Shown here: positions 2,049 through 31,309 of the stretch, in pieces
How the letters are laid out: the number at the start of each line of letters is the position of its first letter
How positions within the stretch are numbered: position 1 is the stretch's first letter
Assembly: GCA_903885195.1 (NCBI GenBank)
Contig: CAISHQ010000087.1
Location: 1-64,000 of the forward strand
Origin: an uncultured Pseudomonadota bacterium
GTDB taxonomy: Bacteria; Pseudomonadota; Gammaproteobacteria; Steroidobacterales; Steroidobacteraceae
Direction of reading: 5' to 3'
Length of the DNA: 64,000 nucleotides
The notes under the pieces: generated by a model
Databases searched by the model: none
What the model saw: the letters and a program-made list of their open reading frames with translations, nothing else
Told to the model about the DNA's origin: nothing
Program-made: the position numbers and the translations under genes

Positions 2049-2091
2049 CCGGTCTGCGCTTCGCGGACTGGATTGAGGCCGCGTCAACGCC

Positions 2092-3306: not shown

Positions 3307-3314
3307 GGACCCAC

Positions 3315-3782
3315 ATGGCCGACCTGAACGACACTGAGCTCGCCTCGATTCGGCACGCGCTGGGTGCCGTGGAGAGCGCTTGGCGACATCTGGATTTCGT
3401 CTCGCTGCGGGCTCTCTGGGATCAATCCCGAGAGCCTGTGTACTTTGCCGAGGAGGCCCCTGAGCCCCTTCTCGACTGGCCCGCGCTGCAGGCCTACTGG
3501 GATCTGACCCGAGCCAGCATCGAGACGATGGGCATGCGCATCACCTCGGTCCACGGGGTGCGAGAGCTCGCGCCCGACCTCGTCTCGGTGGTCTATTCCA
3601 TGCACTGGGACGCAAGGGTTCGGGGCGCGGCAACGCCGCTCGGTGGCGACAACCGCGTCTGTGCCACCTTGCGTCGCACCAGCGAGGGCTGGCGGTTCGT
3701 GCAATACGTGGAATCGCCGCTTGCGCCGATCGTCTACATCAAGCGACTCTACGAGCAGTCGGTCACGCCTGGTTTCGTCTGA
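3315..3782 (+). CDS. NTF2/SnoaL-like small protein
   Basis: A 155-residue protein starting at the ATG at 3315; the ORF track's longer version at 2859 runs back through the MFS gene and is not credible. The pattern of an N-terminal helix (SIRHALGAVESAWRHLDFVSLRALWD), a middle Y/F-rich strand and a closing strand with RTSEGWRFVQYVESPL is that of the SnoaL/NTF2-like alpha+beta barrel. Such proteins are ring-hydroxylating dioxygenase small subunits, isomerases or unassigned ligand binders. It sits 8 bases after the MFS stop, so probably the same operon. Specific function unknown. Confidence 0.65.
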   Translation: MADLNDTELASIRHALGAVESAWRHLDFVSLRALWDQSREPVYFAEEAPEPLLDWPALQAYWDLTRASIETMGMRITSVHGVRELAPDLVSVVYSMHWDARVRGAATPLGGDNRVCATLRRTSEGWRFVQYVESPLAPIVYIKRLYEQSVTPGFV

Positions 3783-3805: not shown

Positions 3806-4216
3806 ATGCAGCAGGTTCTTTGGTACACGCGGTTTGCCAAGCGCTCGGCGCGCCTCGCCGGTCGGCCCGCGACCTTCAGCTTGGCCGTGTGCGTGTTGCT
3901 GGCCTGGCTCATCACCGGTCCGTTGTTCGATTTCAGCGATACCTGGCAGCTCGTGATCAACACCGGCACGACGATCGTCACCTTCCTGATGGTGTTCCTG
4001 ATCCAGAACACGCAGAACCGCGACACCGAGGCCCTGCACATCAAGCTCGACGAGCTGATCCGGGCTACGCAGGGTGCGCACAACGCGCTGCTCGATCTCG
4101 AGGAACTGGAAGAAAAACAACTCGACGAGTTTCGTGCGCGCTACACCGCACTCGCACGCCTGGCGCGTGCCCGTCAGGCCGCAGGGGATACCGACACGGA
4201 CACGCCGGAGCCCTGA
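3806..4216 (+). CDS. Low-affinity iron permease family membrane protein
   Basis: A 136-residue protein with two predicted membrane helices (about residues 23-42 and 52-66), then the conserved FLIQNTQNRDTEALHIKLDELIRA segment and an acidic coiled-coil-like tail. This layout matches the bacterial low-affinity iron permease family, whose bacterial members are short and largely uncharacterised despite the name. A good ribosome site (GAGGAGG) precedes the ATG. Actual iron transport is not shown by the sequence. Confidence 0.75.
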   Translation: MQQVLWYTRFAKRSARLAGRPATFSLAVCVLLAWLITGPLFDFSDTWQLVINTGTTIVTFLMVFLIQNTQNRDTEALHIKLDELIRATQGAHNALLDLEELEEKQLDEFRARYTALARLARARQAAGDTDTDTPEP

Positions 4217-4247: not shown

Positions 4248-5270
4248 TCAGCCCTGAGGCAACCGCTCCGGACCGACGCGCACCAACGCCTTGCCGAAAT
4301 TCCCGCCGCGCATCAGCGCGCAAAACGCCTGCGGCGCGGAGGCGATCCCTTCGCTGACATCCTCGCGGTAACGGAACTGTCCGTCCCTGATCCAGGCACT
4401 AATGAGCTTGACCATCTCAGGCATGCGATTCATGTGGTCGTAGACGACGAGACCACTCATCGTAGCCCGCGCGCCGACGATCGGTCCGAGCCAAGGCCCG
4501 GGCGGCGGCGTATCCATGCTGTACGCCTCGATCATGCCGCACAGCACGATGCGCGCCCCGAGCGCAAGATTGCGCGTGACGGCAGCCAGCGTGTCGCCGC
4601 CCACGTTGTCGAAGTAGACGTCGATGCCGTCTGGGCAAGCCTGTTTGAGCGCTGCCGTCAGATCGCCGTCCTTGTAGTTCACGCACGCGGCAAACCCGAG
4701 CTCGTTCACCGCGTACTCGCACTTGGCGGCGGAGCCTGCGATACCGACCACACGCGCACCCATGTGCCGTGCCACTTGTCCGGCCGTCGTACCGACCGGA
4801 CCCGTGCAGGCCGAGACCACAAAGGTCTGCCCGGGCAGGGGTCGACCGAGATACACAGTTCCCGCATAGCCGGTGAGCCCTGGCATGCCGAGCACACCGA
4901 GAGCGGCACCGAGCGGCGCACTCGATGCATCGAGCTTGCGCACGCCCTGCCCTGATGAGACGGCGTACTGCTGCCAGCCGTTGCGCACGGCGACGTACTC
5001 GCCCACCGTGAACTGCGGATGCCGCGACTCGACGATCTGCGCCACCGTCTCGCCCACCATCACATCGCCTGGATTCAGCCGATCGGCATAGATCTGGCTG
5101 TTCTTCATGACGTTGCGATAGTAGGGATCGAGCGAGAGGTAGATCGTCCGCGACAGGAACTGACCTTCGGACGGGACCGGGATCGCGATCTCATCGGCGC
5201 CGAAGTCCTCGGGGACGGGTAATCCCCGCGGACTCCGCGCGAAAGTAATGCGTTGGTTGCGCTCAGCCAT
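4248..5270 (-). CDS. NADPH-dependent MDR oxidoreductase (CurA/prostaglandin-reductase-like)
   Basis: A 340-residue zinc-free medium-chain dehydrogenase/reductase. It has the leukotriene B4/prostaglandin reductase N-terminus (RSPRGLPVPEDF, then YLSLDPYYRNVM), the core VLGMPGLTGYAGTVYLG, and a nucleotide-binding segment near STGPVG-type residues (ACTGPVGTTAGQVARHMGARVVG). NYKDGDL and IDVYFDNVGG are also typical. These enzymes reduce alpha,beta-unsaturated ketones or aldehydes with NADPH. Its start codon overlaps the peroxiredoxin stop by one base, making it the last gene of the eight-gene minus-strand run. Confidence 0.88.
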   Translation of the reverse strand: MAERNQRITFARSPRGLPVPEDFGADEIAIPVPSEGQFLSRTIYLSLDPYYRNVMKNSQIYADRLNPGDVMVGETVAQIVESRHPQFTVGEYVAVRNGWQQYAVSSGQGVRKLDASSAPLGAALGVLGMPGLTGYAGTVYLGRPLPGQTFVVSACTGPVGTTAGQVARHMGARVVGIAGSAAKCEYAVNELGFAACVNYKDGDLTAALKQACPDGIDVYFDNVGGDTLAAVTRNLALGARIVLCGMIEAYSMDTPPPGPWLGPIVGARATMSGLVVYDHMNRMPEMVKLISAWIRDGQFRYREDVSEGIASAPQAFCALMRGGNFGKALVRVGPERLPQG

Positions 5271-5752
5271 TACAGCTGGCCGAGCACGTACTCCGCGGCG
5301 GATACCTTGAACTCACCGCCCGCCTCGACGTTGACGTGAGTGGCGACCCCGTCCTTGACGATGATGGCGAAGCGCTTGCCACGCACACCCATACCGAAGC
5401 CGCGCGCGTCGAGCTCGAGACCCAGCGCCTTGGTGTAATCACCGTTGCCGTCGGCCAGCATCATCACCTTGTCGCCGACGTTGCTCGCCTTGCCCCACGC
5501 ACCCATGACGAACATGTCGTTTACGGCCATGCAGGCAATGGTGTCGACACCCTTGGCCTTCAGCGCATCGGCGTGCTGCACGTACCCCGGCAGATGCTTG
5601 GCATCGCAGGTCGGCGTGAAGGCGCCGGGCACCGAGAACAGCACGACGGTCTTGCCGCCGAACAGTGCGTCGGTAGTGATTTCTTTGGGACCTTCCGCAG
5701 TCAACTGCTTGAGGGAGCCCGAGGGCATACGCGCGCCGGCTTGGATGGTCAT
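5270..5752 (-). CDS. Prx5-type (glutaredoxin-dependent) peroxiredoxin
   Basis: A 160-residue protein of the AhpE/Prx5-like redoxin family. The active site reads VPGAFTPTCDAKHLPGY, where the Cys of PxxxTxxC is the peroxidatic residue (about residue 49). It reduces H2O2 and organic hydroperoxides in the cytoplasm, usually recycled by glutathione or glutaredoxin. A near-ideal ribosome site (AAGGAGATCACC then ATG) fixes the start. It follows the amidohydrolase by 57 bases and overlaps the MDR gene by one base. It may protect the pathway from oxygenase by-products; that link is inference. Confidence 0.93.
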   Translation of the reverse strand: MTIQAGARMPSGSLKQLTAEGPKEITTDALFGGKTVVLFSVPGAFTPTCDAKHLPGYVQHADALKAKGVDTIACMAVNDMFVMGAWGKASNVGDKVMMLADGNGDYTKALGLELDARGFGMGVRGKRFAIIVKDGVATHVNVEAGGEFKVSAAEYVLGQL

Positions 5753-5809: not shown

Positions 5810-7360
5810 TCAGCCGTACGGTCGATGCAGGTACTGGCCACCCGGCTTGCCTACCGGCTTTCCTTCGTCGTAAACGAGCCGGCCACGCAGGAAGGTACTG
5901 GTCACCGAAGCCTTCATCTCCATACCCTCGAAGACCGAGTAGCCCTGATCGGACTCGGATTCCTTGTTTCCGGCAACGAAACTCTTGTTCGGATCAACGA
6001 GCACGATGTCCGCATCGAAGCCCGGCGCAATGTCGCCTTTGCCATGCAGGCCGAAACGGCGCGCAGCCGTCCACGAGGTCAGCTCCGCGATCTTGTTGTA
6101 GGAGAGGCCACGCGGCTTACCCTCGGTGATCAGAGCCGGAAGCATGAACTCGGTGCCACCGAAACCCGACTTGGCGAGGAAAATGTTCTTCTTGCCGCCC
6201 TTGCGATCGCCGAGCTTGTCCTCCATGCGGCAACAGGCGTGATCGGAGCAGACCCAGTCGAGCTTGCCATCGAGCACGGCCTCCCACAGGAACTCGACGT
6301 CTTCGCGCGAGCGAATCGGCGGATTGACCTTGGCGAGACTGCCGATTTTGGTGTCGTAGTCGAGGCACAAATGGGCAATCGTCACTTCGCGGCGGAAGTT
6401 GACGTGCGGGAACGCCTTCGCCATCCGCATCGCCGACTCGACGGCCTTGCGCGAGGTCAGGTGCAGCAGATTGATATTTGCACAGTTGGTTTCGTTGGCG
6501 AGGTACGAAGCGATGGCGATGGCCAGACCCTCGGAGTGCGGCGGTCGAGCCGCGCTGTAGGCGCGCAAACCCGTGAGCGGCGCACAGTCGATGCAATCAG
6601 GATCCGTGGTCTCGCCGGTGAGATAGGTGTCGAGATCGGTCACCTTGGCACCGCCCTCCACCATCTGCGTGTAGGCCCGCAGGATGTCGGCAAGTTCGCA
6701 GTGCAGGCTGAGCGAGATGGAATCCTTGAGTTTTGGGCGACGCAGCATCGCGCGGTGCACACCACGCATCACGAACTCGAAGTGTGCGATGTCGTACTTC
6801 TCGTTCTCACCGATCATCAGGAACTTGTGCTGCGAGTTGGACGCCCCGTGCAGGCCGTACCCACCGTAGAACATGAAAATCTTGAACGAGGTCACGCCGT
6901 ACTTGTCGATCAGCATGTCGATCTCGCCGATGTGCGTACGATCAAGTGGGGCGAGATGGTAGGCGTAGTCGACCCAGAAGTTGTCCTTCGACTGCGCGAG
7001 GATCTCTGGGTACACCTCGGCGTATGGACCACCACGCTCCATGTAATAGCCGCCGGTGCGGATGTAGTTGAGGCTCGAGGTCACACCACCTTGTGCGGCC
7101 GCCAAACTCTCGCTGCGCGCATCCTGCGCCAACGGCCCATAGATGCCCGTGTGCATATGCGGATCAACGAGACCCGGGAACGCCAGCTTGTTCTTGCCGT
7201 CGACCACTTCCTTGGCCTCAGCCGCCGCGAGCCCCTTGGCAACCTTCACGACCTTGCCGTTCGCAACGGCGATGTCGCACTTTTCGATCGTGGTCTTGCG
7301 CGGTCGAACCACGCGCACGTTTTTGATCAGCAAATCGTACTTCTTGGCTTTCTCAGTCAT
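5810..7360 (-). CDS. Hydantoinase/dihydroorotase-like metal-dependent amidohydrolase
   Basis: A 516-residue amidohydrolase-superfamily enzyme with the full binuclear metal set visible: FPGLVDPHMHTG (H68, H70), SFKIFMFYGG (the Lys that is carbamylated in this family), LHCELADIL and LLHLTS (His ligands), and WVCSDHACC (Asp). That order is that of D-hydantoinase, dihydropyrimidinase, allantoinase and dihydroorotase, which open cyclic amides. HMH replaces the more usual HxH residue H-V/T-H. The exact ring substrate is unknown. It lies in the minus-strand run 101 bases after the SUMF1-like gene, a gap that could hold its own promoter (CATAAT near 7394-7389). Confidence 0.88.
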   Translation of the reverse strand: MTEKAKKYDLLIKNVRVVRPRKTTIEKCDIAVANGKVVKVAKGLAAAEAKEVVDGKNKLAFPGLVDPHMHTGIYGPLAQDARSESLAAAQGGVTSSLNYIRTGGYYMERGGPYAEVYPEILAQSKDNFWVDYAYHLAPLDRTHIGEIDMLIDKYGVTSFKIFMFYGGYGLHGASNSQHKFLMIGENEKYDIAHFEFVMRGVHRAMLRRPKLKDSISLSLHCELADILRAYTQMVEGGAKVTDLDTYLTGETTDPDCIDCAPLTGLRAYSAARPPHSEGLAIAIASYLANETNCANINLLHLTSRKAVESAMRMAKAFPHVNFRREVTIAHLCLDYDTKIGSLAKVNPPIRSREDVEFLWEAVLDGKLDWVCSDHACCRMEDKLGDRKGGKKNIFLAKSGFGGTEFMLPALITEGKPRGLSYNKIAELTSWTAARRFGLHGKGDIAPGFDADIVLVDPNKSFVAGNKESESDQGYSVFEGMEMKASVTSTFLRGRLVYDEGKPVGKPGGQYLHRPYG

Positions 7361-7461: not shown

Positions 7462-8463
7462 TCACGGGTGTGGCATCGTGATCTCGCCGTCCTTGAGATC
7501 ACGCGCGACGCGAAAACCGAAGTAGCTGTAGCGTGCATCGTTCGGGTCGCGACCCCGAAAGGTCAGTCGGTTGCGCGTCGGCCGCGTCATCCAACCGCCA
7601 CCTCGCACCGACCATTTGTCGCAGCTCGCATCGCCCGCGACCGCCCTGCCATCGCTCGGCGCTCCGTCGTAGGTCAGACGGTAGCAATCGGCCACCCACT
7701 CCCAGACGTTGCCGAGCATGTCGTGCAGCCCAAAGCCGTTGGGCTTCAGTCGTCCGACCGGCGCAAGCTCCGCGTAGCCATCGTCGCAATCGGCATAGCC
7801 CCAGCCGAAATCCTGCAGTGCGCGGGCGCGACGATCGTAGAGATTGGCGTACGCGCAGCCGAGATCGGCATTGTTTCCCCAGGAGTAAATGCCAGAGCTT
7901 TGCGCACGAGCGGCGTACTCCCACTCGGCCTCCGAGGGCAGGCGGTAGGCGTGGCCGGTCCGTGCCGACAACCAACGCACGTACGCAAGCGCATCGACTC
8001 GGCCGACGCAGACCACAGGCATGTCCTCCGTGGCCGGCTGCGAGAACCCCGGTGCCTGCCATCCCGCAGCGGACTCGTCGCGCCAGCCGGCCTTGAGCCC
8101 CGGCCCGCTGGGCGCAGTCTGAACGCGGCAGCCCGCTTCGACGCGATACCCCGTCTCCGCCACGAAACGCGCGAATTCCTTGTTGGTGACTTCGGTCAAA
8201 CCGAGTGCGAACCGTCTTGCAATCCGCACCTCGCGCGCTGGCCCCTCCGGTCGCCCGGCCTCGCCATCGAGATCCGAGCCCATGGTGAACCGACCGGCGG
8301 GCACCGTGACGAGCGCCGGGCAGTCGACACAGTCGTGCCAAACCTGACTAGGTGCCTGTCCGGAGGCCTTCACGGGAACGCTGTCTTGCGCCCGCGCCGC
8401 AGTGCCGATTACGCAGACGATGGTAACGAGGCAAAGCAGCCCCGCGAGACGCCCTCGCCTCAC
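7462..8463 (-). CDS. Secreted SUMF1/FGE-fold protein lacking the catalytic cysteines
   Basis: A 333-residue protein with an N-terminal signal peptide (RLAGLLCLVTIVCVIGTAARAQ) and a formylglycine-generating-enzyme-like domain from about residue 45: FTMGSDLDGE, EVTNKEFARF, YRLPSEAEWEYAAR, GNVWEWVADCYR, RGGGWMTRP, FGFRVARD. In true FGEs the segment after RGGS carries two copper-binding cysteines (C-x4-C); here those positions read RGGGWMTRPTRN with no Cys, so it is probably not a formylglycine-generating enzyme. No sulfatase gene is nearby. The GTG start overlaps the gntR stop (GTGA), so the two are co-translated. Confidence 0.85.
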   Translation of the reverse strand: MRRGRLAGLLCLVTIVCVIGTAARAQDSVPVKASGQAPSQVWHDCVDCPALVTVPAGRFTMGSDLDGEAGRPEGPAREVRIARRFALGLTEVTNKEFARFVAETGYRVEAGCRVQTAPSGPGLKAGWRDESAAGWQAPGFSQPATEDMPVVCVGRVDALAYVRWLSARTGHAYRLPSEAEWEYAARAQSSGIYSWGNNADLGCAYANLYDRRARALQDFGWGYADCDDGYAELAPVGRLKPNGFGLHDMLGNVWEWVADCYRLTYDGAPSDGRAVAGDASCDKWSVRGGGWMTRPTRNRLTFRGRDPNDARYSYFGFRVARDLKDGEITMPHP

Positions 8464-9209
8464 GTTGTCTCACCCCGCGTACGCGCATGGTGCTCGAGTG
8501 TCATGTGGTACTGGTAGGCGTCGGCGCGATACAAAGCGACGACGCGCTCCACCGGCCGATCCTCGTCGTCGAACACGGTGCGCGACAGTCGCAGCAAGGG
8601 CGCACCGACCTCGACACCGAGTGCGCGGGCCGCCTCGACCCCCGCGAGCGTCGCCCCGATGAATTGGTCGGCACGCGCCACGCGGATGCCAACGGTGCCG
8701 AGCAACTCGAACATCGGTTGTCGCGCCATCTCGGCAGGATCCACACGACGCGCGACATCGAGCGGTACGTAGGTCGTGATCAGCCCCAGGGGCACGCCCT
8801 GGACTGTGCGCACATGCGTGGCACGCTGGACGCGGGCCTGCTCCTCGAGTCCGAGCGACGCTCGAGTTTCATCGTCGGGATCGATGTCGGTGACCGTCAG
8901 GTCGCGCACTTCGGTTGCCGCGGCGAGCCCGGCCACCTGACTACGTACATCGTTGATGTCGAGCGAGCCGGCGGCCCGTGCGCGCGATATTTGCACAAAG
9001 GTGCCGCGTCCCTGCTGTCGCAGCAGCCAACCCTCTTTCGCCAGATTGTCGATGGCCTTGCGCACCGTGATGCGCGACACCCCGAACACCTCGCAGAGCT
9101 GAGGCTCGGTCGGAATTTGTTCGCCGGGCTTGTATGTCCCGTCGCGCACCCAGGTACGCAGCGTCACGTAGACCTGGTGATATCGAGGCGAAGCGATGGC
9201 GGTATGCAT
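8460..9209 (-). CDS. GntR family regulator, HutC subfamily
   Basis: A 249-residue protein with an N-terminal winged helix (residues about 8-72: LRTWVRDGTYKPGEQIPTE, then VSRITVRKAIDNLAKEGWL and RQQGRGTFV), followed by a UTRA ligand-binding domain (about 95-240) ending VERVVALYRADAYQYHM, the HutC/FarR hallmark. These are usually repressors released by a pathway metabolite. It sits inside the minus-strand catabolic run and is the obvious candidate to control it and the divergent methyltransferase-ALDH pair. Its ligand is unknown. Confidence 0.92.
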   Translation of the reverse strand: MHTAIASPRYHQVYVTLRTWVRDGTYKPGEQIPTEPQLCEVFGVSRITVRKAIDNLAKEGWLLRQQGRGTFVQISRARAAGSLDINDVRSQVAGLAAATEVRDLTVTDIDPDDETRASLGLEEQARVQRATHVRTVQGVPLGLITTYVPLDVARRVDPAEMARQPMFELLGTVGIRVARADQFIGATLAGVEAARALGVEVGAPLLRLSRTVFDDEDRPVERVVALYRADAYQYHMTLEHHARTRGETT

Positions 9210-9226: not shown

Positions 9227-9961
9227 TCAGTCCAACACCATTCCGCCAGAGAGATTCATCACCGTACCGGTGACGAATCCCGCAGCGGGGCTCGTCAAAT
9301 AATCGATGGCGTGGGCGACATCCTGCGGCGCACCCAATCGTCCGAGCGGCACATTGTGACGCAACTGATCGAGCACCTGCGCCGAAAATCGGCCCGTGAC
9401 CATCGGCGTATCAATCGGCCCGGGGGCCAGACAATTGACCCGAATCCGCTCGGGCGCCCATTCTTTGGCCAGATAACGCGTCAGGTTGATGAGGCCCGCC
9501 TTGGCCACCGCGTAGGCGGGACCCGACAAGCTGCTGCCCCCGTTGAGCCCGTTGGTCGAGGACGTGAGCGTGAGCGAACCTTGACTCGCCGCTAGGGACG
9601 CATAGGCCGCCTTGGCGAGCAGAAACGCGGAGGTGAGATTGACGTCGATCAGCCGTCGCCAATCGGCCAAGCTCACCGCCGCAAGGGGCCCCGCACCGGC
9701 GGCACCGGCCAAGTGAACCACGTGATCGATGCGCCCGAACTCACCGAGCGCAGCCGCGATACCCGCGGCCACCGAGGACTCGTCGGCGACATCGACGCTC
9801 GCCACTGCAACGGGCGTCCCGCAGGGAATGGCGGCCAAGTGCAAGTCGGTGGCAAACACCCGCATACCCCGCTCGCGCAGGCGCGCCACCGCGGCCCTGC
9901 CGAGACCGCCCGCCGCGCCGGTAACGAACGCGACTGGCGCACCCGCGGACATCGGCGCCAT
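9227..9961 (-). CDS. Short-chain dehydrogenase/reductase (SDR)
   Basis: A 244-residue classical SDR. The Rossmann glycine motif VTGAAGGLGR is at about residues 11-20, the NNAG equivalent reads HLAGAAG, and the catalytic region is LTSSTNGLNG (Ser) then YAVAKAG (Tyr-x3-Lys), with PGPIDTPM after it. It interconverts a hydroxyl and a carbonyl using NAD(P)H. The longer ORF to 10096 runs into the upstream HDO gene; ATG at 9961 (or 9952) fits the SDR domain start. The ATG at 9961 lies 17 bases inside the inter-gene boundary after the HDO stop. The NNAG-to-HLAG change is unusual but tolerated in some SDRs. Confidence 0.9.
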   Translation of the reverse strand: MAPMSAGAPVAFVTGAAGGLGRAAVARLRERGMRVFATDLHLAAIPCGTPVAVASVDVADESSVAAGIAAALGEFGRIDHVVHLAGAAGAGPLAAVSLADWRRLIDVNLTSAFLLAKAAYASLAASQGSLTLTSSTNGLNGGSSLSGPAYAVAKAGLINLTRYLAKEWAPERIRVNCLAPGPIDTPMVTGRFSAQVLDQLRHNVPLGRLGAPQDVAHAIDYLTSPAAGFVTGTVMNLSGGMVLD

Positions 9962-9977
9962 CGTCAGGACGCTCGAC

Positions 9978-10697
9978 TCAGGCGGCCTTGCTGCGTAGGA
10001 CGCTCGCGTACACGCCGTCGAGCATGGAGAAGCGCATCTCCGCCGAAGCGCGTACCGCGGCGATGGCGCGCTCCTGCAGTTCGGGCGAGGTCGCATAGCG
10101 AGCGGTCAGTTCGAGCCCGATGTGCGCGTGCTCGGTATCACCTTCGATGTGCACATGGAAGAACTCCATGTCATCGTCGCTGAAGCCCATCTTGCGCATC
10201 GCCTCAACGTACTTCGGATACAGCGTCGGCAATTGGCCCTCGAGCGCCACCATGATTCCCGCGCAGGCCTCGGACAGGTGACGGATGCTGGAGAGCTCCC
10301 AGATCCATGCGCGCATGGCCCGCGTCGTCGGCAGCACCTCGCCGTTCTGCTCGGCACGCAGGATGCGCTCGTCGCTGACGCCGCAGGAGCGCGCAAACTT
10401 GCGCAGCAGATCCGGGTGGCGCTTCTCCGGACAGGCGGGCATTTCCTCACCGAGAAGGTTCTCGAGCAGATGCTGACGGGCATCGAGATCCGGCAGCCGC
10501 GCGTACAGCTGTGCGAACTGTTGCGGGATCGGATCGATGTAATAGAAATGCTGGATGGCCCATTCGCCGAGTTGGGCGCGCGACAGCTCCCCCGCCCCCC
10601 AAGAGCGACTGAAGATGTGTCCACCACCGTGCTTCGGTTGGCGGGCTGCCTCGAGGGCGGCAAAAAATTCGGCGGTGCTCATCATGGACTTCATCAT
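9978..10697 (-). CDS. Heme-oxygenase-like diiron protein (HDO; PqqC/TenA/CADD fold)
   Basis: A 239-residue all-helical protein of the iron-containing redox enzyme family. From the ATG at 10697 the HDO ligand pattern can be followed: E84/E85 (LLGEEM), H94 (EKRHPDLL), E153 (MVALEGQLP), then H183-x3-D187-x2-H190 (HIEGDTEH), the same spacing as in CADD-type diiron enzymes. Known HDOs do oxidative decarboxylation, C-C cleavage, N-oxygenation or pABA synthesis with O2. The start is set by AAGGAG 4 or 7 bases before two adjacent ATGs; the track start at 10739 overlaps ubiD and has no such site. It lies between the UbiD and SDR genes. Reaction not predictable. Confidence 0.85.
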   Translation of the reverse strand: MMKSMMSTAEFFAALEAARQPKHGGGHIFSRSWGAGELSRAQLGEWAIQHFYYIDPIPQQFAQLYARLPDLDARQHLLENLLGEEMPACPEKRHPDLLRKFARSCGVSDERILRAEQNGEVLPTTRAMRAWIWELSSIRHLSEACAGIMVALEGQLPTLYPKYVEAMRKMGFSDDDMEFFHVHIEGDTEHAHIGLELTARYATSPELQERAIAAVRASAEMRFSMLDGVYASVLRSKAA

Positions 10698-10735
10698 CGG
10701 ACTCCTTCGACTCTCTTTCGCACAGTAATCGGAAT

Positions 10736-12151
10736 TCAAACTCTAGGCCAGTGGGGGTTTTCCGCGGCGCCCAGCAGTTGCCTCGCACGCTGGGCGGCCT
10801 CGGGCGGCACGGTCGCCACCAACGGATACTCTTTTGGCAAGCCGGCGCGGGCCGGCGCGGGGATGGTGGCATCGATGCCCATCTTGTCGGTGACCGACAC
10901 ACCCTCCGGCAGCGACGGATCGAGCGCGGAGCCCGACAGGCCCGACACAACGATGGAGTCGCGCGACCACTGCACGCGGGTGGCCACGGCCCACAGCATC
11001 GCATCGGTGTTGAAGATATCGACGTCCTCGTCGACCACGATCACGGTCTTCAGGCGTCGATACGCGAGCGCAGCCAACAGCGCATCGCGAGCCTCACCAC
11101 GCGCCGGATTGCGCAACTGCAGGTAGGCATGAAACCGACGGCCCTCAGTCGGCACATATACGTTCTCGAGCGAAGGTGCCACGGCCTTGACCAGTTCGTA
11201 GACCTTGCCTTCCATCGCCATGTTGTCGGGCACGAGCATGTCGGTCAGACCCGAGGCGTAGTCGTGGTACAGAGCATCGCGACGTCGCGTAATGCAGCCG
11301 ACCTCGAACACCGGCGCCTGGACGGCGCCACCGAGGTAGCCCGTGTACTCGCCGAACGGGCCATCGGTCGTGAGTACCCCGGGCGGCACGAACCCTTCGA
11401 TGACGATTTCTGCATCGGCAGGCACCATCACCTTGTCGCCGTGCAGCACCGAGGGCACCACGCGCAGCGGCCGACCGAGCACACCGCCCGCGGCCTGCCA
11501 ATGACTTTCGGGGTATTTCAGTTTGGCCTGTGTGCCGAGCAACACCGCCGGATGGTGGCCGATCCAGAACGCCACCGGCGCAGGTTCACCGCGCGCGTGG
11601 AACTTACGGACGTTGCGCGCATTGTGCGAGGCGGGATACGGGAAATACGTCATGCGCCGCGGTTCCTGCACCCAGCAGCGTTGGATCGCCGTGTTGTCGA
11701 TGCCGGTGTCCGGGTCGTAGGTCGTGGCATGCGCGGCCGTCAGGTACGGACCGGGCTCATGCTCGTGTTGAGTCAACACCGGCAATTCGAACAGACTTGC
11801 GGCGTCCCCACGCTGGATGATCTGCTGTACCGGGGCTTCGTCGCTGCGCAGCACCTCAGGGGCAATGCCCGCCCGAGTGCGCGTGGCGAACCAGCGCGCC
11901 GTCTGTCGGTGATCGGGAATGCCGAGCGCCTTCGCCGTCAACTCCCGACTCGCTGTGAGATTGGTGACGACTGGAATCGCCGAGGGTGCACCCGCCAGAT
12001 TGCTGATCTGGGCGGCGCGCAGGATCGGGTAACGCCGCTGCGAATCGAGCTCGTGCTGCAGCGCGGTCAGTTCGTAGCGAGCCGACACGGGCGATGCAAT
12101 GTCCCATACCATCGCGGCATGGTCGTGCAGGAACTGGCGCAAGTCGCTCAT
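10736..12151 (-). CDS. UbiD-family (prenylated-FMN) decarboxylase
   Basis: A 471-residue UbiD-type protein. Recognisable segments are NLTASRELTAKALGI, IGHHPAVLLGTQ, MVPADAEIVIEGFVPPG, DGPFGEYTGY and the C-terminal DKMGIDAT. The family (de)carboxylates aromatic, heteroaromatic or unsaturated acids using prenylated FMN made by UbiX; no ubiX is in the window. The usual EGPFGE active-site motif reads DGPFGE here (D263), a conservative change at a catalytic acid. It is the first gene of the minus-strand run and is followed by the HDO gene after 38 bases. The substrate is probably not octaprenyl-hydroxybenzoate, since the context is catabolic. Confidence 0.9.
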   Translation of the reverse strand: MSDLRQFLHDHAAMVWDIASPVSARYELTALQHELDSQRRYPILRAAQISNLAGAPSAIPVVTNLTASRELTAKALGIPDHRQTARWFATRTRAGIAPEVLRSDEAPVQQIIQRGDAASLFELPVLTQHEHEPGPYLTAAHATTYDPDTGIDNTAIQRCWVQEPRRMTYFPYPASHNARNVRKFHARGEPAPVAFWIGHHPAVLLGTQAKLKYPESHWQAAGGVLGRPLRVVPSVLHGDKVMVPADAEIVIEGFVPPGVLTTDGPFGEYTGYLGGAVQAPVFEVGCITRRRDALYHDYASGLTDMLVPDNMAMEGKVYELVKAVAPSLENVYVPTEGRRFHAYLQLRNPARGEARDALLAALAYRRLKTVIVVDEDVDIFNTDAMLWAVATRVQWSRDSIVVSGLSGSALDPSLPEGVSVTDKMGIDATIPAPARAGLPKEYPLVATVPPEAAQRARQLLGAAENPHWPRV

Positions 12152-12188
12152 CGGATTGCAATCACCGGTTCAAACGTTATAGTCGCAT

Positions 12189-12202
12189 GATGACAGGTCA
12201 TC
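12189..12202. promoter_or_regulatory. Palindrome in the ubiD/methyltransferase divergent promoter
   Basis: GATGACAGGTCATC is a 14-base inverted repeat with perfect 6-base arms and a 2-base centre, in the 92-base gap between the divergent ubiD and methyltransferase starts. An extra half-site GTCATC lies at 12224-12229. On the minus strand a TATAAC box (12181-12176) lies just downstream, placing the palindrome in the -35/spacer region of a possible ubiD promoter, where a repressor could block transcription. The GntR protein encoded in the operon is the natural candidate; the binding is inferred. Confidence 0.45.
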
Positions 12203-12243
12203 CGGTGTTTCGGTAGAGGCCTTGTCATCTGTAGGAGTGAAGC

Positions 12244-13368
12244 ATGGTTCGCAGTGTGCAGCACGAGATGCTCGCGGTTCCGACCGCAGATGAGACTGCC
12301 CGCCAGCAATTCGTCGTCGCCTTCAAGCAGGCGCTGAATCGCGGCCTGCGCAAAACCCAGGGCGACCTGTTCGAGACAGTTGTCGCACCGGGCTGGGCGG
12401 CAGAGCACGGCGCCCCCCCGACCACCCGCGAAACGATCCGCGAGGCCATGCAGGCGGACCCCGCCTATCGCAGCTGGTCCTCGCTCGCGCGTGCGGCGCA
12501 GGAGCAGATGTGGATCACGGTCGGCGACAGCATTTTTCGCGAACGCGAGCGTCTCGCTGCCACCGCCGAGCGGCTTGCGCAGGCGCCGACGCGTCGGGGC
12601 AGCCTCACGCTCGATCCGAGCTTCGCGCCGCCGCGGGGCGTCACGGGCGTCGACATTCACCTTCAGCCCGGCGGCTACGCCCTCGATCTTGGCGAGGGAG
12701 ACTGCTCCGCTGGCGCGCTATACGAGTCGGGCGGCAACCTGTACGCCTTCGGCCAGGGCATCAGTCGCACCGATAGCAAGGCCGCTCACGTGCAGCGCTT
12801 TCTGCGCGAGCGTTTTCCGCGACTGCAACCGCGACGGATTCTCGACATGGGTTGCTCGGCGGGCTCGGCGAGCGTGCCCTACGCCGAAGCGTATCCCGAG
12901 GCCGAAGTTCATGCCATCGACGTCGGCAGCGGCATGCTGCGATACGCGCATGCGCGTGCCGAATCGCTGGGGGTGGCCGTTCACTTGCATCAAATGGACG
13001 TCGCCCGCACCCGCTTCGAGAACGAGTCGTTCGATCTGATCGTCTCGCACAACCTCATGCACGAGATCTCGGCTCCCACTCGCCGCGGCATGCTGCGCGA
13101 GAGCCGTCGGCTCCTGCGCCCGGGTGGTGTCTGCGTGCACCAGGACGTGCCGCTGCGCTTCCAGGGCCTCTCCGAGTTCCGCAAGTTCGACATGTCCTGG
13201 GACACGCTCAACAACAACGAGCCGTACTGGGAAGTCTATGCCAACGCAGACCTGCAGCCCGAGTTGCACGCTGCCGGTTTCGCCGAGGATTGCATACATG
13301 TCGGCAGTCTGCCCGCCGCGCAGGGCTCGCTGCCGTGGTTCGTTGCCTGTGCCTGGAGACCTGAATGA
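12244..13368 (+). CDS. Class I SAM-dependent methyltransferase
   Basis: A 374-residue protein. The C-terminal half (about residues 195-330) is a class I methyltransferase: motif I ILDMGCSAGSAS, then EVHAIDVGSGMLRYA, FDLIVSHNLMHE and the post-motif LLRPGGVCVHQD. The first ~190 residues are an additional domain without a clear family match and may hold the acceptor substrate. AGGAG sits 7 bases before the ATG. The last codon overlaps the ALDH start (ATGA), so the pair is translationally coupled. A COQ5/UbiE-like C-methyl or O-methyl transfer cannot be distinguished. Confidence 0.85.
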   Translation: MVRSVQHEMLAVPTADETARQQFVVAFKQALNRGLRKTQGDLFETVVAPGWAAEHGAPPTTRETIREAMQADPAYRSWSSLARAAQEQMWITVGDSIFRERERLAATAERLAQAPTRRGSLTLDPSFAPPRGVTGVDIHLQPGGYALDLGEGDCSAGALYESGGNLYAFGQGISRTDSKAAHVQRFLRERFPRLQPRRILDMGCSAGSASVPYAEAYPEAEVHAIDVGSGMLRYAHARAESLGVAVHLHQMDVARTRFENESFDLIVSHNLMHEISAPTRRGMLRESRRLLRPGGVCVHQDVPLRFQGLSEFRKFDMSWDTLNNNEPYWEVYANADLQPELHAAGFAEDCIHVGSLPAAQGSLPWFVACAWRPE

Positions 13369-14870
13369 CCGTCACGATCAGCCGTAATTTCCCCGTCAAC
13401 CCGCATGTCACGAGCCTCATCGATGGCGAGTCTGTGCCGCTGCGCGCCACGGGTGAGGACATCGCCGTGGTCAACCCGACCACCGAGGAGCAGATCAGCC
13501 AGCTGCGTGAAGCGGATGCAGACGAGGTCGATGCCGCCGTTCGCTCGGCGCGACGCGCATTCGATTCCGGTCGGTGGCCGCGCATGGACATCACCGAGCG
13601 CAAGGACATTCTGTATTCGATCCGCGACCATCTTCGCAAGAATGCAGAGGAGCTCGCCTATCTCGAGTGTCTGAACACCGGGCTGCCGCTGCACAGCGTG
13701 CGCGTTCACGTGCAACGCATGGCGCGCAACTTCGAATTTTTCGCCGAGGTGGCAAGCACGGTTCACGGCGAGACCTACACGCAGACGGCCGGGTACCTCA
13801 CCTACGTCACGCGCGAGCCCAAGGGCGTCGCCGGCTGCATCGCGCCGTGGAACGCGCCACTCGCCCTCGCCTCGATGCGCGTCGCCACCTGCATTCCCTG
13901 GGGCAACACCTGCGTGTTGAAGCCCTCGGAGTACACGCCGTTGTCGATGCGCCGAATGGTCGAGATCTTCCACGAAGCCGGCCTACCTCCGGGTGTGGTC
14001 AATCTCGTCAACGGCCGTGGCGCCGTGACGGGTAACGCACTCGTCGCGCACCCCGGCATCGACATGGTCGGCTTCACCGGCGGCACCGTGACCGGTCGTG
14101 CGATTGCTGCGGCTGCCGGGCGCAACCTCAAGCCCGTCGCACTCGAACTCGGCGGCAAGTCGGCCAATATCATCTTCGATACGGCAGACGTAGAGCGTGC
14201 ACTCGATGGTGCACTGGCTGGCATCTTCGGCAACAACGGCCAGCAATGCCTCGCCGGCTCGCGCATCCTGGTGCAGCGTGGCATCGCCGATGCGCTCATC
14301 GAGCGTTTCGTGCAGCGTGCACGCAAGATCCGACTCGGCGACCCGATGCTGCCTTCGACGGAGATTGGCCCGCTCGCGTTCCGTCAACACATGGAGCGGG
14401 TGCTGTCCTACGTCGAAGTCGCGAAGGCCGATGGCGCCACGCTGCTGACTGGCGGCCGACGCTCTGAGCAACACGAGAAAGGCTGGTTCATCGAGCCGAC
14501 CGCCGTGCTTGCGCCGCACAACGACTCGCGGGTGTGCCAGGAGGAAATCTTTGGCCCCTTCGCCACATTCCTCGTCTTCGATACCCTCGATGAGGCGATC
14601 CACATCGCCAACTCCTCGAACTTCGGTCTTGTCACCTACGTCTGGTCCGAGGATTTGTCGACTGTGATGCGCTGCAGCCGCGAAATCCGCGCCGGCACCG
14701 TATGGGTGAACACGCCGATGATGCGCGAGTTGCGTGCGCCTTTCGGCGGCTACAAAGAATCAGGCATTGGTCGCGACGGCCCACAGGCGAGCCTAGAGTT
14801 CTTCACCGAGCTCAAGGCCACCATCATCCCGATCGACCCCGTGAAGATGCACCGTTACGGGGCTTCTTGA
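13365..14870 (+). CDS. Aldehyde dehydrogenase, HpaE/semialdehyde-dehydrogenase-like
   Basis: A 501-residue NAD(P)-dependent aldehyde dehydrogenase of standard length. Catalytic residues are in VALELGGKSANII (E261) and NNGQQCLAGSR (C295); the NAD site includes PWNAPLALA and GFTGGTVTGR. The segment ECLNTGLPLHSV and VQRMARNFEFFAE recalls 5-carboxymethyl-2-hydroxymuconate semialdehyde dehydrogenase and related aromatic-pathway enzymes, which suits the context. It oxidises an aldehyde intermediate to an acid. Its 3' end overlaps the convergent VOC gene by 47 bases. Confidence 0.93.
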   Translation: MTVTISRNFPVNPHVTSLIDGESVPLRATGEDIAVVNPTTEEQISQLREADADEVDAAVRSARRAFDSGRWPRMDITERKDILYSIRDHLRKNAEELAYLECLNTGLPLHSVRVHVQRMARNFEFFAEVASTVHGETYTQTAGYLTYVTREPKGVAGCIAPWNAPLALASMRVATCIPWGNTCVLKPSEYTPLSMRRMVEIFHEAGLPPGVVNLVNGRGAVTGNALVAHPGIDMVGFTGGTVTGRAIAAAAGRNLKPVALELGGKSANIIFDTADVERALDGALAGIFGNNGQQCLAGSRILVQRGIADALIERFVQRARKIRLGDPMLPSTEIGPLAFRQHMERVLSYVEVAKADGATLLTGGRRSEQHEKGWFIEPTAVLAPHNDSRVCQEEIFGPFATFLVFDTLDEAIHIANSSNFGLVTYVWSEDLSTVMRCSREIRAGTVWVNTPMMRELRAPFGGYKESGIGRDGPQASLEFFTELKATIIPIDPVKMHRYGAS

Positions 14871-15390
14871 CGGCCCGACGGCGCAGACCGGGAAAGCGAT
14901 TGGAAATTCCGACGCTGCCGCCCTTGATGTTCTGGATGAAATTCACCAGCACACCATTCGGGTCACGCAAGGTCATCTCCTTGGACACGACGCCGTGCGC
15001 CGCGAGTTCCAGCAAGGTCGGCGGACAGAGAATCTCGAGTCCCAACTTGACGGCACCGCGGTGAATTGCCTCGACGTCGGGCGTATGAAATACGAGACAG
15101 GCCTCGCCACGATTGGCTCGCTTGCGCGAGCGATGCCGATCGGTGGGCGGCGCCGGCCCGCTGAGTTCGAACAGACCCACCATGCCCCAGTCCACGTCCT
15201 CGGACTGCAGGATCACCCAGCGTGTGGTGCACGGCGGCGCACCGAGCAGGCGAAACAGCGCAGGCAACTCGCGCCCGGCCTTGCCCTGCACCCAAACGTT
15301 CATGCCGAGAACGTCGCGGTAGAACTTGAGCGATCGCCGCAAGTCGGTGACGATGATGGCGGTGCGCTTGAGAGGGGTTACGGCGGACAT
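14824..15390 (-). CDS. VOC (glyoxalase/dioxygenase superfamily) protein
   Basis: A 188-residue vicinal-oxygen-chelate protein. The first beta-alpha-beta module reads LKRTAIIVTDLRRSLKFYRDVLGM and the second ends LRDPNGVLVNFIQNIKGG, both standard. Members include extradiol dioxygenases, glyoxalase I, fosfomycin-resistance and epimerase proteins; the His/Glu metal positions are not obviously those of any one class. A basic tail of about 35 residues (FPGLRRRAVKKPRNGASSRG) extends past the domain into the overlap with the ALDH gene. AAGGAGTCCGAGT before the ATG fixes the start. Transcribed divergently from the nitrilase gene. Confidence 0.82.
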   Translation of the reverse strand: MSAVTPLKRTAIIVTDLRRSLKFYRDVLGMNVWVQGKAGRELPALFRLLGAPPCTTRWVILQSEDVDWGMVGLFELSGPAPPTDRHRSRKRANRGEACLVFHTPDVEAIHRGAVKLGLEILCPPTLLELAAHGVVSKEMTLRDPNGVLVNFIQNIKGGSVGISNRFPGLRRRAVKKPRNGASSRGRSG

Positions 15391-15400
15391 ACTCGGACTC

Positions 15401-15454
15401 CTTGAACAACCTTGAACAACCTAGAACAACCTAGACAATATCAACGTAGACAAT
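15401..15454. promoter_or_regulatory. 10-base tandem repeats in the VOC/nitrilase divergent promoter
   Basis: CTTGAACAAC is repeated at 15401 and 15411, followed by CTAGAACAAC at 15421 and CTAGACAATA at 15431, so four units at exactly one helical turn. TAGACAAT recurs at 15447-15454, 15 bases after its first copy at 15432. The array lies between the divergent VOC and nitrilase starts and overlaps the VOC ribosome site. Spacing on one face of the helix suggests cooperative binding by a regulator, or slippage-born repeats; neither is proven. Confidence 0.45.
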
Positions 15455-15491
15455 GTCCCACTGGGACCACTTCCACCACACGGAATTCACC

Positions 15492-16574
15492 ATGCAGGAA
15501 CCTTGGAACCTTACCGTCGTGCAGCCGGCCGTCAAGCCAGTCTTCAAGGGCGATGCACCCCTGCGGCGAGATGCGCTGCAGGACAACCTCGAGCGCGCCT
15601 GCGAGCACATCCGCGTGGCTCAACGCTATTCGCGCAGCAAGCTCGTGGTGTTCCCCGAGTTTTTTCTGCATGGCTTTCAGCCAGGGCGCAGCAATGAGGA
15701 TTGGATCGAGGCCTCGCTGCGACTCGATGGACCGGAACTCGCGACGCTCGGCCGCGCGGCGGCGAGCGCGGGGTGTTACGTCGCCGGTATGATCTACGAA
15801 GTGCTGGACGAGTTTCCTGGGCGCTTCTGGAACACGGCCTTCATCCTCGACCCGACGGGCAAGCTCGCACTCGTCTACCGCAAGCTCTACGCGATGACGG
15901 GCAAGACGCGCCCCGGCGACGTCTACTCCGACTACACCCGCCGCTACGGCGGTGCAGGCTCGCTCTTTCCGGTGTTGCGCACGCCACTTGGCAACTTGGG
16001 CTGTCTGGTCTGTTACGACATCAACTTTCCGGAAGTCACACGCTGCCTCGCACTGCAGGGTGCGGAGATCTTCCTGCACATCTCGAGCGAAGGCCGCAGC
16101 AGCTATCACTTGCCCGACGGCGGCTGGGAGCTCGCCCGCCGCGTTCGTGCGTACGAAAACCACGCCTTCCTCGCCATGTCCAACTGCGGTCCCGTGCTGG
16201 ATGGCGAGGGACCCTCCGACGTGTCACATGGTCATTCGCAGATCATCGACTTCCACGGCAAGGTGCTCAACATGGCTGAGTCTGCCGGCGAAACGCAGAT
16301 CACGGCGGAGATCGACATCGAAGCGCTGCGCCGACGGCGTGCCCGCGCGAGCCTGAATTTCCTTGCAGAACTGTCCCCGGGCATCCACGCCCCGATCTAC
16401 GCGGCGGCGCAGAATTGGCCCCTCGATGGTTGGGCGGATCGCGTAGGGACAGGCGTCGCCGACAACCGTCGCGTCGAGGCGGAGGTGATCGCCGATCTGA
16501 CTCGCCGCGGCGTGCTCACCGCCCCGCAGCGCGCTCCAGATACCGGTGCCGGTCGCCTGCCGCAGCAGGAATGA
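15492..16574 (+). CDS. Nitrilase-superfamily carbon-nitrogen hydrolase
   Basis: A 360-residue enzyme from ATG 15492; the track's ATG at 15453 adds 13 residues (SHWDHFHHTEFT) that fall in the repeat-rich promoter and lack a ribosome site. The Glu-Lys-Cys triad is visible: VVFPEFFLHG (E56), LVYRKLYAM (K131), GCLVCYDINFPE (C174). It hydrolyses an amide, N-carbamoyl group or nitrile in the cytoplasm. An amidase or N-carbamoylase role would pair with the ring-opening amidohydrolase at 5810; this is inference. Its stop overlaps the start of the binding-protein gene. Confidence 0.88.
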   Translation: MQEPWNLTVVQPAVKPVFKGDAPLRRDALQDNLERACEHIRVAQRYSRSKLVVFPEFFLHGFQPGRSNEDWIEASLRLDGPELATLGRAAASAGCYVAGMIYEVLDEFPGRFWNTAFILDPTGKLALVYRKLYAMTGKTRPGDVYSDYTRRYGGAGSLFPVLRTPLGNLGCLVCYDINFPEVTRCLALQGAEIFLHISSEGRSSYHLPDGGWELARRVRAYENHAFLAMSNCGPVLDGEGPSDVSHGHSQIIDFHGKVLNMAESAGETQITAEIDIEALRRRRARASLNFLAELSPGIHAPIYAAAQNWPLDGWADRVGTGVADNRRVEAEVIADLTRRGVLTAPQRAPDTGAGRLPQQE

Positions 16575-18139
16575 TGTCGCGCCTGCTCGTAGCGCTGCTG
16601 CTCTGCGGCCTCATTGCCACGGCACAGGCGGGCGGCGTGCTGCGCAGTGGCCATCCCGGCGAGCCTGATTCCCTCGACCCCCACGTTGCAGTCGCAGCGC
16701 CTGCACTTGTCGTCAACAACGACCTGTTCGAGAGCCTCCTCACGCTCGATGCGCGCGGCCGGCCGGTCCCGGGTGCCGCCGAGCGATACGAGGTCAGCGC
16801 CGATGGCCTGACCTACACCTTCACCTTGCGTCGCGGCCTCACCTATTCCGATGGTCGCCCGATCACGGCCGCGGATTTCGTATGGTCGATGCGTCGGCTT
16901 GCCGACCCCGCAACGGCGGGCACAGGACTCGCCGCGTGGATCGACCTGATTGAGGGCGGCCGCGCCGTGCTGCGCGGCGAGCGGCCGCCGGAATCCCTAG
17001 GCGTGAGTGCGACTGACACGCGCACCGTGCGCATCCGGCTCGCGCTGCCTGCGCCTTATTTTCCGTCGATCGTTGCATTCCCCGTGTTTGCGCCCCTGCC
17101 TCGGCATGTCATCGAAAAGCACGGCCGTGCCTGGACGCGAGCCGAGAATTTTGTCGGCAACGGCCCGTTCATGCTTTCGAGCTGGATCCCGGGGCAACCG
17201 GTACGCGTCAAGCGCAATCCGCGTTTCCATGCAGCCGCCTCGGTCAAGTTGGATGGCGTCGAATACCACGCGATCGGCGATCTGAATTCGGGATTGCGCC
17301 GTTTCCTCACCGGCGATCTCGATGCGCTCACCAACTTCCCACCGGAGAAGCTCGATTGGTTGCGCGCCGAAGCGCCGCGTGAGCTGCGGCTCGCACCCTC
17401 GCTCGGCGTCACGGCTTACGTGTTCAACCACCGACTGCCCAAGTTCCGCGACATTCGCATCCGTCATGCGCTGACACTCGCCATCGATCGCGACGTGTTA
17501 ACCCGCAACATCGTCCGTGCAGGGGACCGACCCGCCTGGAGCCTCGTGCCACCGGGCTTGCCGGGCTTTCCCAAAGCACGCACGGTCAACGGCAGCCATG
17601 CCGACCGAGCAGCCCTCGCCCGCCAACTGATGCGTGCAGCCGGCTACGGTCCGGAACGCCCCTTCGAGGTCGAGCTGCTCTACCACACGAGCGAGGAACA
17701 TAAGAAAGTCGCTGTGGCCATCGCGGCGATGTGGCAACAGGTCGGCGTGAAGGTATCGCTGCGCAATGCCGAGCGACAGGTCGTCGAAGTCGCCACACGC
17801 AACGGCGACTTCGAAATTGTGCGCGCGGCACTGTTCTCACCCTACCTCGATGCCACGGGATTTTTCTCGTTCCTGCGGCGCGGAAGCCCATCGAACGGCG
17901 GTGCCTACGACAACGAGCAGTTCGAGCAATTGCTCGATGCGGCTGCCCGCAGCACCGATCCGACAAAACGGCTGCAGCAGCTTGCCGCCGCAGAACAGTT
18001 GCTGGTCGACGATCGCGCGCTGATCCCGCTCTACTACCTCGTCAGTCGACGCCTCGTGTCGCAGCGAGTGATCGGCTGGCGTGACGACAACCTGACGGCG
18101 CTGCGTCCCGCACGCTGGCTCGACTTGCGAGCCAAGTAG
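16571..18139 (+). CDS. Peptide/nickel-type ABC substrate-binding protein (SBP_bac_5), orphan
   Basis: A 522-residue periplasmic binding protein. The first of two ATGs at 16571/16574 gives a good signal peptide (SRLLVALLLCGLIATAQAGG); the track's ORF from 16415 runs through the nitrilase gene. Family features include LRSGHPGEPDSLDPH at the mature N-terminus, YTFTLRRGLTYSDGRPITAADFVWS, and DIRIRHALTLAIDRD. Oligopeptide-type proteins bind peptides and many other solutes. No permease or ATPase genes are adjacent, so it is an orphan or works with a distant transporter. It overlaps the nitrilase gene by 4 bases. Confidence 0.88.
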   Translation: MMSRLLVALLLCGLIATAQAGGVLRSGHPGEPDSLDPHVAVAAPALVVNNDLFESLLTLDARGRPVPGAAERYEVSADGLTYTFTLRRGLTYSDGRPITAADFVWSMRRLADPATAGTGLAAWIDLIEGGRAVLRGERPPESLGVSATDTRTVRIRLALPAPYFPSIVAFPVFAPLPRHVIEKHGRAWTRAENFVGNGPFMLSSWIPGQPVRVKRNPRFHAAASVKLDGVEYHAIGDLNSGLRRFLTGDLDALTNFPPEKLDWLRAEAPRELRLAPSLGVTAYVFNHRLPKFRDIRIRHALTLAIDRDVLTRNIVRAGDRPAWSLVPPGLPGFPKARTVNGSHADRAALARQLMRAAGYGPERPFEVELLYHTSEEHKKVAVAIAAMWQQVGVKVSLRNAERQVVEVATRNGDFEIVRAALFSPYLDATGFFSFLRRGSPSNGGAYDNEQFEQLLDAAARSTDPTKRLQQLAAAEQLLVDDRALIPLYYLVSRRLVSQRVIGWRDDNLTALRPARWLDLRAK

Positions 18140-30368: not shown

Positions 30369-30571
30369 GACTGCCCCCGCACTGCGCTGGCGGTGGCGAC
30401 CGACGACGCGTCGCCCGTCGCCCCGCTCGCGAGGCGACGGCGTGCCTCGGTACGCGCACGATCAAGGTCGCGCCGCGCCGTGTACACGTTGATGACGATG
30501 GCGAGCAGCGTCACCGCGTAGGCCGGCCACAGGAACAGGGCGTACCCGCCCATCGAAAAAAATTCATTCAT
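30365..30571 (-). CDS. ccmD: Heme exporter accessory protein CcmD
   Basis: A 68-residue small membrane protein, missed as a separate entry in the ORF track because it is embedded in a longer frame. MNEFFSMGGYALFLWPAYAVTLLAIVI gives the single helix with the conserved MGGY/W-x-Y pattern, followed by a basic cytoplasmic tail (TARRDLDRARTEARRRLA). It stabilises the CcmC-CcmE complex and release of holo-CcmE. It overlaps ccmC upstream and ccmE downstream, each by 4 bases. Confidence 0.92.
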   Translation of the reverse strand: MNEFFSMGGYALFLWPAYAVTLLAIVINVYTARRDLDRARTEARRRLASGATGDASSVATASAVRGQS

Positions 30572-31302: not shown

Positions 31303-31309
31303 CTGCAGA

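Follow-up and report, generated by a model that had tools for sequence, protein, structure and literature searches.

Why are a UbiD-type decarboxylase, a heme-oxygenase-like diiron oxygenase (HDO) and a short-chain dehydrogenase/reductase (SDR) encoded side by side? This question is raised by positions 9,227 to 12,151 of a 64,000-nucleotide stretch of DNA (the window, hereafter) from contig CAISHQ010000087.1 of an uncultured Steroidobacteraceae bacterium. The initial annotation of the window had taken the three genes as one module and suggested an undescribed oxygen-dependent route for an aromatic or unsaturated acid. We observed that the UbiD-HDO-SDR order is kept in essentially all loci of the same genus and in other families, a conservation that is far beyond chance, and the partnership of the UbiD with the HDO is strongly supported. 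We consider it probable, though by no means assured, that the module enables aerobic bacteria to catabolise a (hetero)aromatic carboxylic acid; the UbiD would decarboxylate the acid and the HDO would oxygenate the product. The three genes are the following.

10736..12151, minus strand: UbiD-family (de)carboxylase of the prenylated flavin mononucleotide (prFMN) type, 471 amino acids (aa), assigned by Pfam and NCBIfam; best solved relative 6h6v (HmfF)
9978..10697, minus strand: HDO, 239 aa, with 3H/3C ligands, assigned by Pfam PF14518 (Haem_oxygenas_2, 3e-28) and by AlphaFold2 with Foldseek
9227..9961, minus strand: SDR family oxidoreductase, about 244 aa, ATG at 9961, assigned by Pfam adh_short_C2 (8e-56), with YAVAK and TGAAGGLG

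As described earlier, these genes form one unit on the minus strand (12151-9227), with the HDO between the UbiD and the SDR and gaps of 38 and 16 bases. The module as first drawn holds for these three genes, but it left out a GntR gene directly downstream and a zinc-ribbon gene that is found in relatives. The HDO likely starts at the ATG at 10697 rather than at the TTG of a longer open reading frame (ORF), because AAGGAG is located a few bases upstream of this ATG. Both catalytic motifs of the SDR, TGxxxGxG and YxxxK, are present.

Part of the evidence for the partnership comes from counts over genomes. Among 396 genomes of the order, 34 had both genes, one (G442) had only the HDO, none had only the UbiD and 361 had neither; when counted by genus, the association gave P=4.5e-8. 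In an Alphaproteobacterial order (317 genomes), all 18 genomes with the HDO also had the UbiD, and five more had the UbiD without the HDO. Eight genomes of family f12 hold the UbiD and the HDO at separate loci, where the two still co-occur, and therefore adjacency alone fails to explain the co-occurrence. The initial annotation had reckoned with HDO homologues being found mostly without a UbiD. This was not so for the close homologues (34/35 and 18/18 with UbiD), and it was partly so for the deeper ones, namely eight loci with HDOs of 59-61% identity and G442 (62%), where absence of such a UbiD was judged at E <= 1e-60.

Neighbourhoods were counted in a base set of 60 named loci from GTDB genomes. 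The UbiD lies on the same locus as the HDO in 41 of the 60; of the remaining 19, those whose genomes were checked and positive are explained by contig ends or by separate loci, and eight come from genomes without such a UbiD. One of these eight (L101) is from a 1.9 Mb genome, and its sister locus, L103, does carry the UbiD. On a 66-row HDO tree, UbiD presence needs three changes. The divergence of the HDO was correlated with that of the UbiD (Mantel r 0.85), the SDR (0.84) and a neighbouring aldehyde dehydrogenase (ALDH; 0.88), with 0 of 999 permutations as high; these correlations support, rather than prove, co-inheritance as a unit, because shared genome ancestry contributes to them. The HDO clade is rare outside its own lineages: when 369 genomes from across the class were searched, only weak HDOs were found besides that of the window's genome, in four genomes. 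No relative was found in the viral contigs searched, and the plasmid search returned only distant HDOs (<=36% identical). Two loci, L052 and L102, belong to records titled Klebsiella pneumoniae and Bordetella parapertussis; these are metagenome-assembled genomes (MAGs), their HDO loci group with other environmental MAGs, and the taxon names in the titles look wrong.

Of all its neighbours, the SDR stays with the HDO most constantly and adjoins it in nearly all loci, UbiD-less ones included; the initial annotation had asked whether the two travel together. In Gammaproteobacteria the order is UbiD-HDO-SDR-GntR with a methyltransferase (MT)-ALDH pair divergent from it, and in Alphaproteobacteria it is UbiD-SDR2-ALDH-HDO-SDR-GntR, usually followed by a dienelactone hydrolase. 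The ALDH is a partner of the module in both classes, and a GntR homologue lies beside the SDR in most loci.

The assignment of the HDO was based on its ligands and its predicted fold. In an alignment of 32 homologues, down to 59% identity, residues E84, H94, E153, H183, D187 and H190 were invariant. The ligand numbering given earlier was exact, and no loss of iron ligands was seen in these relatives. E85 varied once in the alignment and is only nearly invariant, and hence E84 is the likely ligand. The AlphaFold2 model (pLDDT 89.8) recovered the HDO fold with its seven heme-oxygenase-type helices, and Foldseek matched it best to CtCADD (TMq 0.82), then to PqqC, FlcD, UndA, HrmI and BesC. Judged from sequence and model, the protein is an HDO of the 3H/3C type, which would be expected to bind two irons, or Fe/Mn, and to use O2.

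CtCADD and NePabS, which share this fold and the 3H/3C ligands, are the nearest characterised sequences, and the closest solved sequences are p-aminobenzoate (pABA) synthases (9pj4, E=1.7e-19). However, Tyr27 and Lys152, given as the sacrificed residues of CtCADD in a 2026 review (PMC13108848), are absent from the HDO, where Ser30 (invariant) and Tyr163 align with them. Most HDOs of the clade are also three residues longer than CtCADD and NePabS between the first Glu ligand and the first His ligand, and, unlike these two, the HDO resides in a catabolic-looking operon. Its score with the CADD model TIGR04305 was 95.6 bits against a cut-off of 200. A CADD-type pABA synthase was ruled out, as both sacrificed residues are missing. 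The HDO also matches the fold of PqqC (E=7.5e-9), described in the review as a metal-independent enzyme of pyrroloquinoline quinone synthesis (PMC13108848), but it keeps the metal ligands and scored 54.2 bits with the PqqC model TIGR02111 (cut-off 240). The invariance of the whole set of metal ligands makes a cofactorless enzyme of the PqqC/TenA type unlikely. The C-C cleaving HDOs UndA and BesC belong to the same superfamily and have the same type of metal ligands, with 18-20% identity; they differ in being biosynthetic, with a fatty acid or an amino acid as substrate, as the review has it (PMC13108848). About a dozen of more than 10,000 sequences of the superfamily are counted there as characterised, with predominantly fatty and amino acid substrates; the characterised members are biosynthetic, and the accessible text describes no degradative HDO (PMC13108848).

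The UbiD matched all three Pfam domains of its family (N-terminal, rift-related and C-terminal) and scored 247.6 with TIGR00148, just above the cut-off of 244.85. Its closest solved relative is HmfF (6h6v, E=1.5e-68), followed by the AroY and phenolic-acid decarboxylase (7ae4) types; all these match far better than Fdc1. Members of the clade carry the signature DGPFGE[YF]TG, with D263, G264 and E268 in 40 of 40. In the Glu-Arg-Glu (E-R-E) network, R158 and E268 are kept, whereas the first acid, a Glu in HmfF and other characterised relatives, is D263, giving D-R-E. His296 and Arg304 of HmfF, which we take to be its carboxylate-binding pair, align with Met and Met in this UbiD, and an HmfF-type furandicarboxylate decarboxylase was ruled out on these two presumed pocket residues. 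A UbiD of ubiquinone synthesis is disfavoured as well, the genome having two other UbiD genes and the nearest model not being the ubiquinone one. The VdcC model came second among the NCBIfam models (211.6 bits; cut-off 650). The genome has three UbiD genes, the two others being only 27-28% identical to that of the module, and a single UbiX (186 bits against a cut-off of 108.9), the gene of which adjoins the UbiD in Alphaproteobacterial loci.

In at least 26 named loci, the UbiD gene is directly followed by one for a protein of 55-80 aa having two CxxC motifs, an MJ0042-like zinc ribbon (L082:5431, L053:7852 and L126:10611-10823 are examples). Among the named loci this ORF occurs at none that lacks the UbiD, and it is also found after UbiDs that have no HDO (L122-L124). 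The protein probably works like VdcD, an activating subunit of VdcC that is likewise a zinc ribbon and has two CxxC motifs (PMC8379154). The likeness to VdcCD thus comprises a homologous UbiD, an adjacent two-CxxC small protein in relatives and a UbiX nearby in Alphaproteobacteria (PMC8379154). The differences are that the UbiD stays below the VdcC cut-off, that no VdcD model matches the small, MJ0042-like protein, and that its gene is absent from the window and from its genome. The family is possibly a new class of UbiD partner subunit, which would give UbiD enzymes a second type of partner with a zinc ribbon. Of the two kinds of acid proposed initially, an unsaturated acid is less likely than a (hetero)aromatic one, because HmfF, AroY and 7ae4 resemble the UbiD so much more than Fdc1 does and because the zinc ribbon of relatives recalls VdcD. 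The proposed partnership and its apparent novelty stood.

The features surrounding the three genes in the window are listed below.

8460..9209, minus strand: GntR/HutC-like regulator with a UTRA domain (Pfam UTRA and GntR), 17 bp downstream of the SDR
7462..8463, minus strand: FGE-sulfatase/PvdO-like protein, overlapping the end of GntR; a variable accessory, missing from many relatives
5810..7360, minus strand: hydantoinase/allantoinase/dihydropyrimidinase-like cyclic amidohydrolase (HYD), 516 aa, downstream of GntR
5270-5752, minus strand: peroxiredoxin gene near the module
12152..12243, no strand: divergent promoter region of 92 bp, between UbiD and MT
12244..13368, plus strand: S-adenosylmethionine (SAM) methyltransferase (MT), 374 aa, with a helical N-terminal domain; divergent partner gene
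13365..14870, plus strand: ALDH, HpaE-like, of the semialdehyde dehydrogenase group, 501 aa; NCBIfam HpaE is the nearest model

The MT and ALDH genes overlap by 4 bases and diverge from the 92-bp gap, in agreement with the shared promoter region noted initially. The ALDH scored 520 bits with the HpaE model TIGR02299, below its cut-off of 638, which makes HpaE its nearest model and not a family to which it belongs. The fold search with the MT returned generic small-molecule methyltransferases only and indicated no function; its homologues are also present beside UbiD-less HDOs (L095-L097) and beside a second HDO copy (L093). Past the FGE-like gene, a quinone-oxidoreductase-like gene lies on the minus strand together with HYD and the peroxiredoxin gene. 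In some relatives a gene for a TonB-dependent receptor is located between the UbiD and the MT-ALDH pair (L031:3742-6228, with similar-sized genes in L034 and L063).

The surroundings of the module are typical of degradation: its neighbours include a TonB receptor, transporters of the major facilitator superfamily (MFS) and of the tripartite ATP-independent periplasmic (TRAP) type, a tannase/feruloyl esterase and a dienelactone hydrolase. Most UbiD-less HDOs (58-62% identity) adjoin Rieske oxygenases or ferredoxins. These are BenA/BenB-like Rieske subunits in L104, a VanA_C-type Rieske protein in L117 (the same type, by homology, in L095, which is from the cultured Sphingopyxis panaciterrulae DSM 27163, and in L096) and a ferredoxin with its reductase in L097; L117 also encodes an FAD hydroxylase and a protein of the arylmalonate-decarboxylase family. 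A distant HDO from a Caballeronia plasmid (35%) lies beside an ALDH like alpha-ketoglutaric-semialdehyde dehydrogenase, ferredoxins and a BenC-like reductase. The HDO-SDR pair may be fed from either of two front ends, a UbiD or a Rieske enzyme.

The observations at hand are the gene order, the invariant ligands, the modelled fold, the co-occurrence of UbiD and HDO, and the UbiX gene; from these, a probable course of the route is as follows. The UbiD, with prFMN supplied through the single UbiX of the genome, would remove the carboxylate, and the HDO, via its dimetal centre and O2, would oxygenate the decarboxylated ring. The SDR and the HpaE-like ALDH would then oxidise the resulting alcohol and (semi)aldehyde. 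The GntR protein, a probable local regulator, probably controls both the operon and the divergent MT-ALDH pair, and in relatives the zinc ribbon encoded after the UbiD would act as a VdcD-like activator. As to the ring, 20 of the scanned loci, from several genera, have a HYD homologue close to the module. The Alphaproteobacterial locus L126 has a caprolactamase-like pair, a RutB-like hydrolase, a TRAP transporter and a urease operon flanking its module (13153-17551, 2018-3727), and an N-carbamoylase-type M20 protein is encoded near the module in L070, L071, L074 and L075. As these three unrelated types of ring-amide/ureide hydrolase lie near the module in different lineages, we take a nitrogen heterocycle as the favoured ring, though as no more than a lead. 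We tentatively suggest that the ring could be of this kind, perhaps pyrrole-like, and that the HDO product could be a lactam or cyclic amide, the ring of which would be opened by enzymes of the hydantoinase or lactamase type. That a catabolic HDO oxygenates an N-heteroaromatic ring, for example pyrrole made from pyrrole-2-carboxylate by the UbiD, to a lactam or cyclic imide opened in the same manner is the more doubtful proposal.

An HDO of this last kind would, as far as could be found, be the first with a known role in degradation and the first to be linked with decarboxylation by prFMN. If the catabolic route holds, uncultured bacteria of lakes and the sea would combine, in one aerobic pathway, a decarboxylase of an oxygen-sensitive type with an enzyme that activates O2. 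The HDO clade, with its fixed partner and degradation-type neighbours, offers a testable route to a catabolic role in the superfamily. The module is built from known families, and their combination is apparently new: no characterised pathway matching it was found in the open-licence literature. Searches there for HDO with UbiD, or PqqC with UbiD, gave nothing relevant, and since subscription journals were mostly outside their scope, this is weak evidence of novelty.

Several observations weigh against the catabolic partnership or against its nitrogen-ring version. Five of the 23 Alphaproteobacterial genomes with this UbiD subfamily have no HDO (one of these UbiDs is on a 3-kb contig), and the eight deeper named loci and G442 have the HDO without such a UbiD; the two enzymes are therefore not obligate partners at all depths. 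Genes that co-occur in MAGs related to each other do not count as independent events. Apart from L126, the Alphaproteobacterial loci have neither a hydantoinase nor a lactamase in their vicinity, and for this reason the nitrogen ring stays a lead; besides, HyuA/HyuB homologues can be carboxylases.

Keeping the same scheme with another ring, the substrate might be a benzenoid phenolic acid of the hydroxybenzoate or vanillate type, with a VdcCD-like UbiD and zinc ribbon, and the HDO hydroxylating or cleaving the phenol to give a semialdehyde for the HpaE-like ALDH. We regard this as somewhat unlikely. The rank of VdcC among the NCBIfam models, the VdcD-like role of the small zinc-ribbon subunit (PMC8379154), the best match of the ALDH to HpaE, the tannase and dienelactone hydrolase neighbours, and the BenA/BenB-like Rieske proteins of UbiD-less relatives all agree with it. 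However, neither VdcC nor HpaE reaches its curated cut-off, the zinc ribbon matches no VdcD model, the core has no known enzyme of phenol pathways as a recurring neighbour, and the nitrogen-hydrolysing neighbours are left unexplained.

The remaining explanations dispense with catabolism. A biosynthetic cluster, with the UbiD for decarboxylation and the HDO for a modification of a natural product, would be in line with the biosynthetic roles of the characterised HDOs, as given in the review (PMC13108848), and with the SAM methyltransferase among the partner genes. It is improbable: no polyketide synthase, nonribosomal peptide synthetase or peptide genes were seen around the module, the genes next to it are for transporters, hydrolases, dehydrogenases and enzymes that oxidise rings, and its wide spread and strong conservation among small MAG genomes are in keeping with catabolism. 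We give still less credence to the HDO acting not on a pathway substrate but in protecting or maturing the prFMN decarboxylase, by removal of O2 or oxidation of reduced prFMN. Hexameric aromatic UbiDs are indeed oxygen-sensitive (PMC8379154), prFMN requires oxidative maturation (PMC10865409), the co-occurrence is tight and a peroxiredoxin gene is nearby. Nevertheless, nine relatives have the HDO without this UbiD, several of them beside Rieske oxygenases, the SDR tracks the HDO more constantly than the UbiD does, and the same UbiD subfamily occurs without the HDO in several genomes. Finally, the nearest solved sequences and folds being pABA synthases, the HDO could be thought to make pABA for folate in the CADD manner, with incidental neighbours; the replaced sacrificial residues, the low score with the CADD model and the strict co-occurrence with the UbiD make this extremely improbable.

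Returning to the regulation of the proposed catabolic operon, the 92-bp region contains an inverted repeat, GATGAC-AG-GTCATC. A TGTCATGTNNACATGACA-like palindrome with <=4 mismatches is present 24-59 bases before the UbiD in eight other loci (L060-L063, L065, L068, L069 and L091), being exact in L091, and is a candidate GntR operator on its sequence. The window's own site is weaker (5 mismatches, p=0.06); with the palindrome weak here, though clear in the eight other loci, no GntR operator could be shown in the window.

Genes for the beta and alpha subunits of an electron-transfer flavoprotein (349-2048) and for a low-affinity iron permease (3806-4216) are also located near the operon; the former are retained beside it in many loci of the same genus. 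On the other side of the module, 19623-20351 encodes a protein of a family without a Pfam match; its homologues in the Alphaproteobacterial loci L082, L084, L086, L098 and L106, about 40% identical and often in tandem pairs, are encoded within a few kb of the module. The AT skew is 0.22-0.27 over about 8 kb at 24001-32000, where it differs from the rest of the window.

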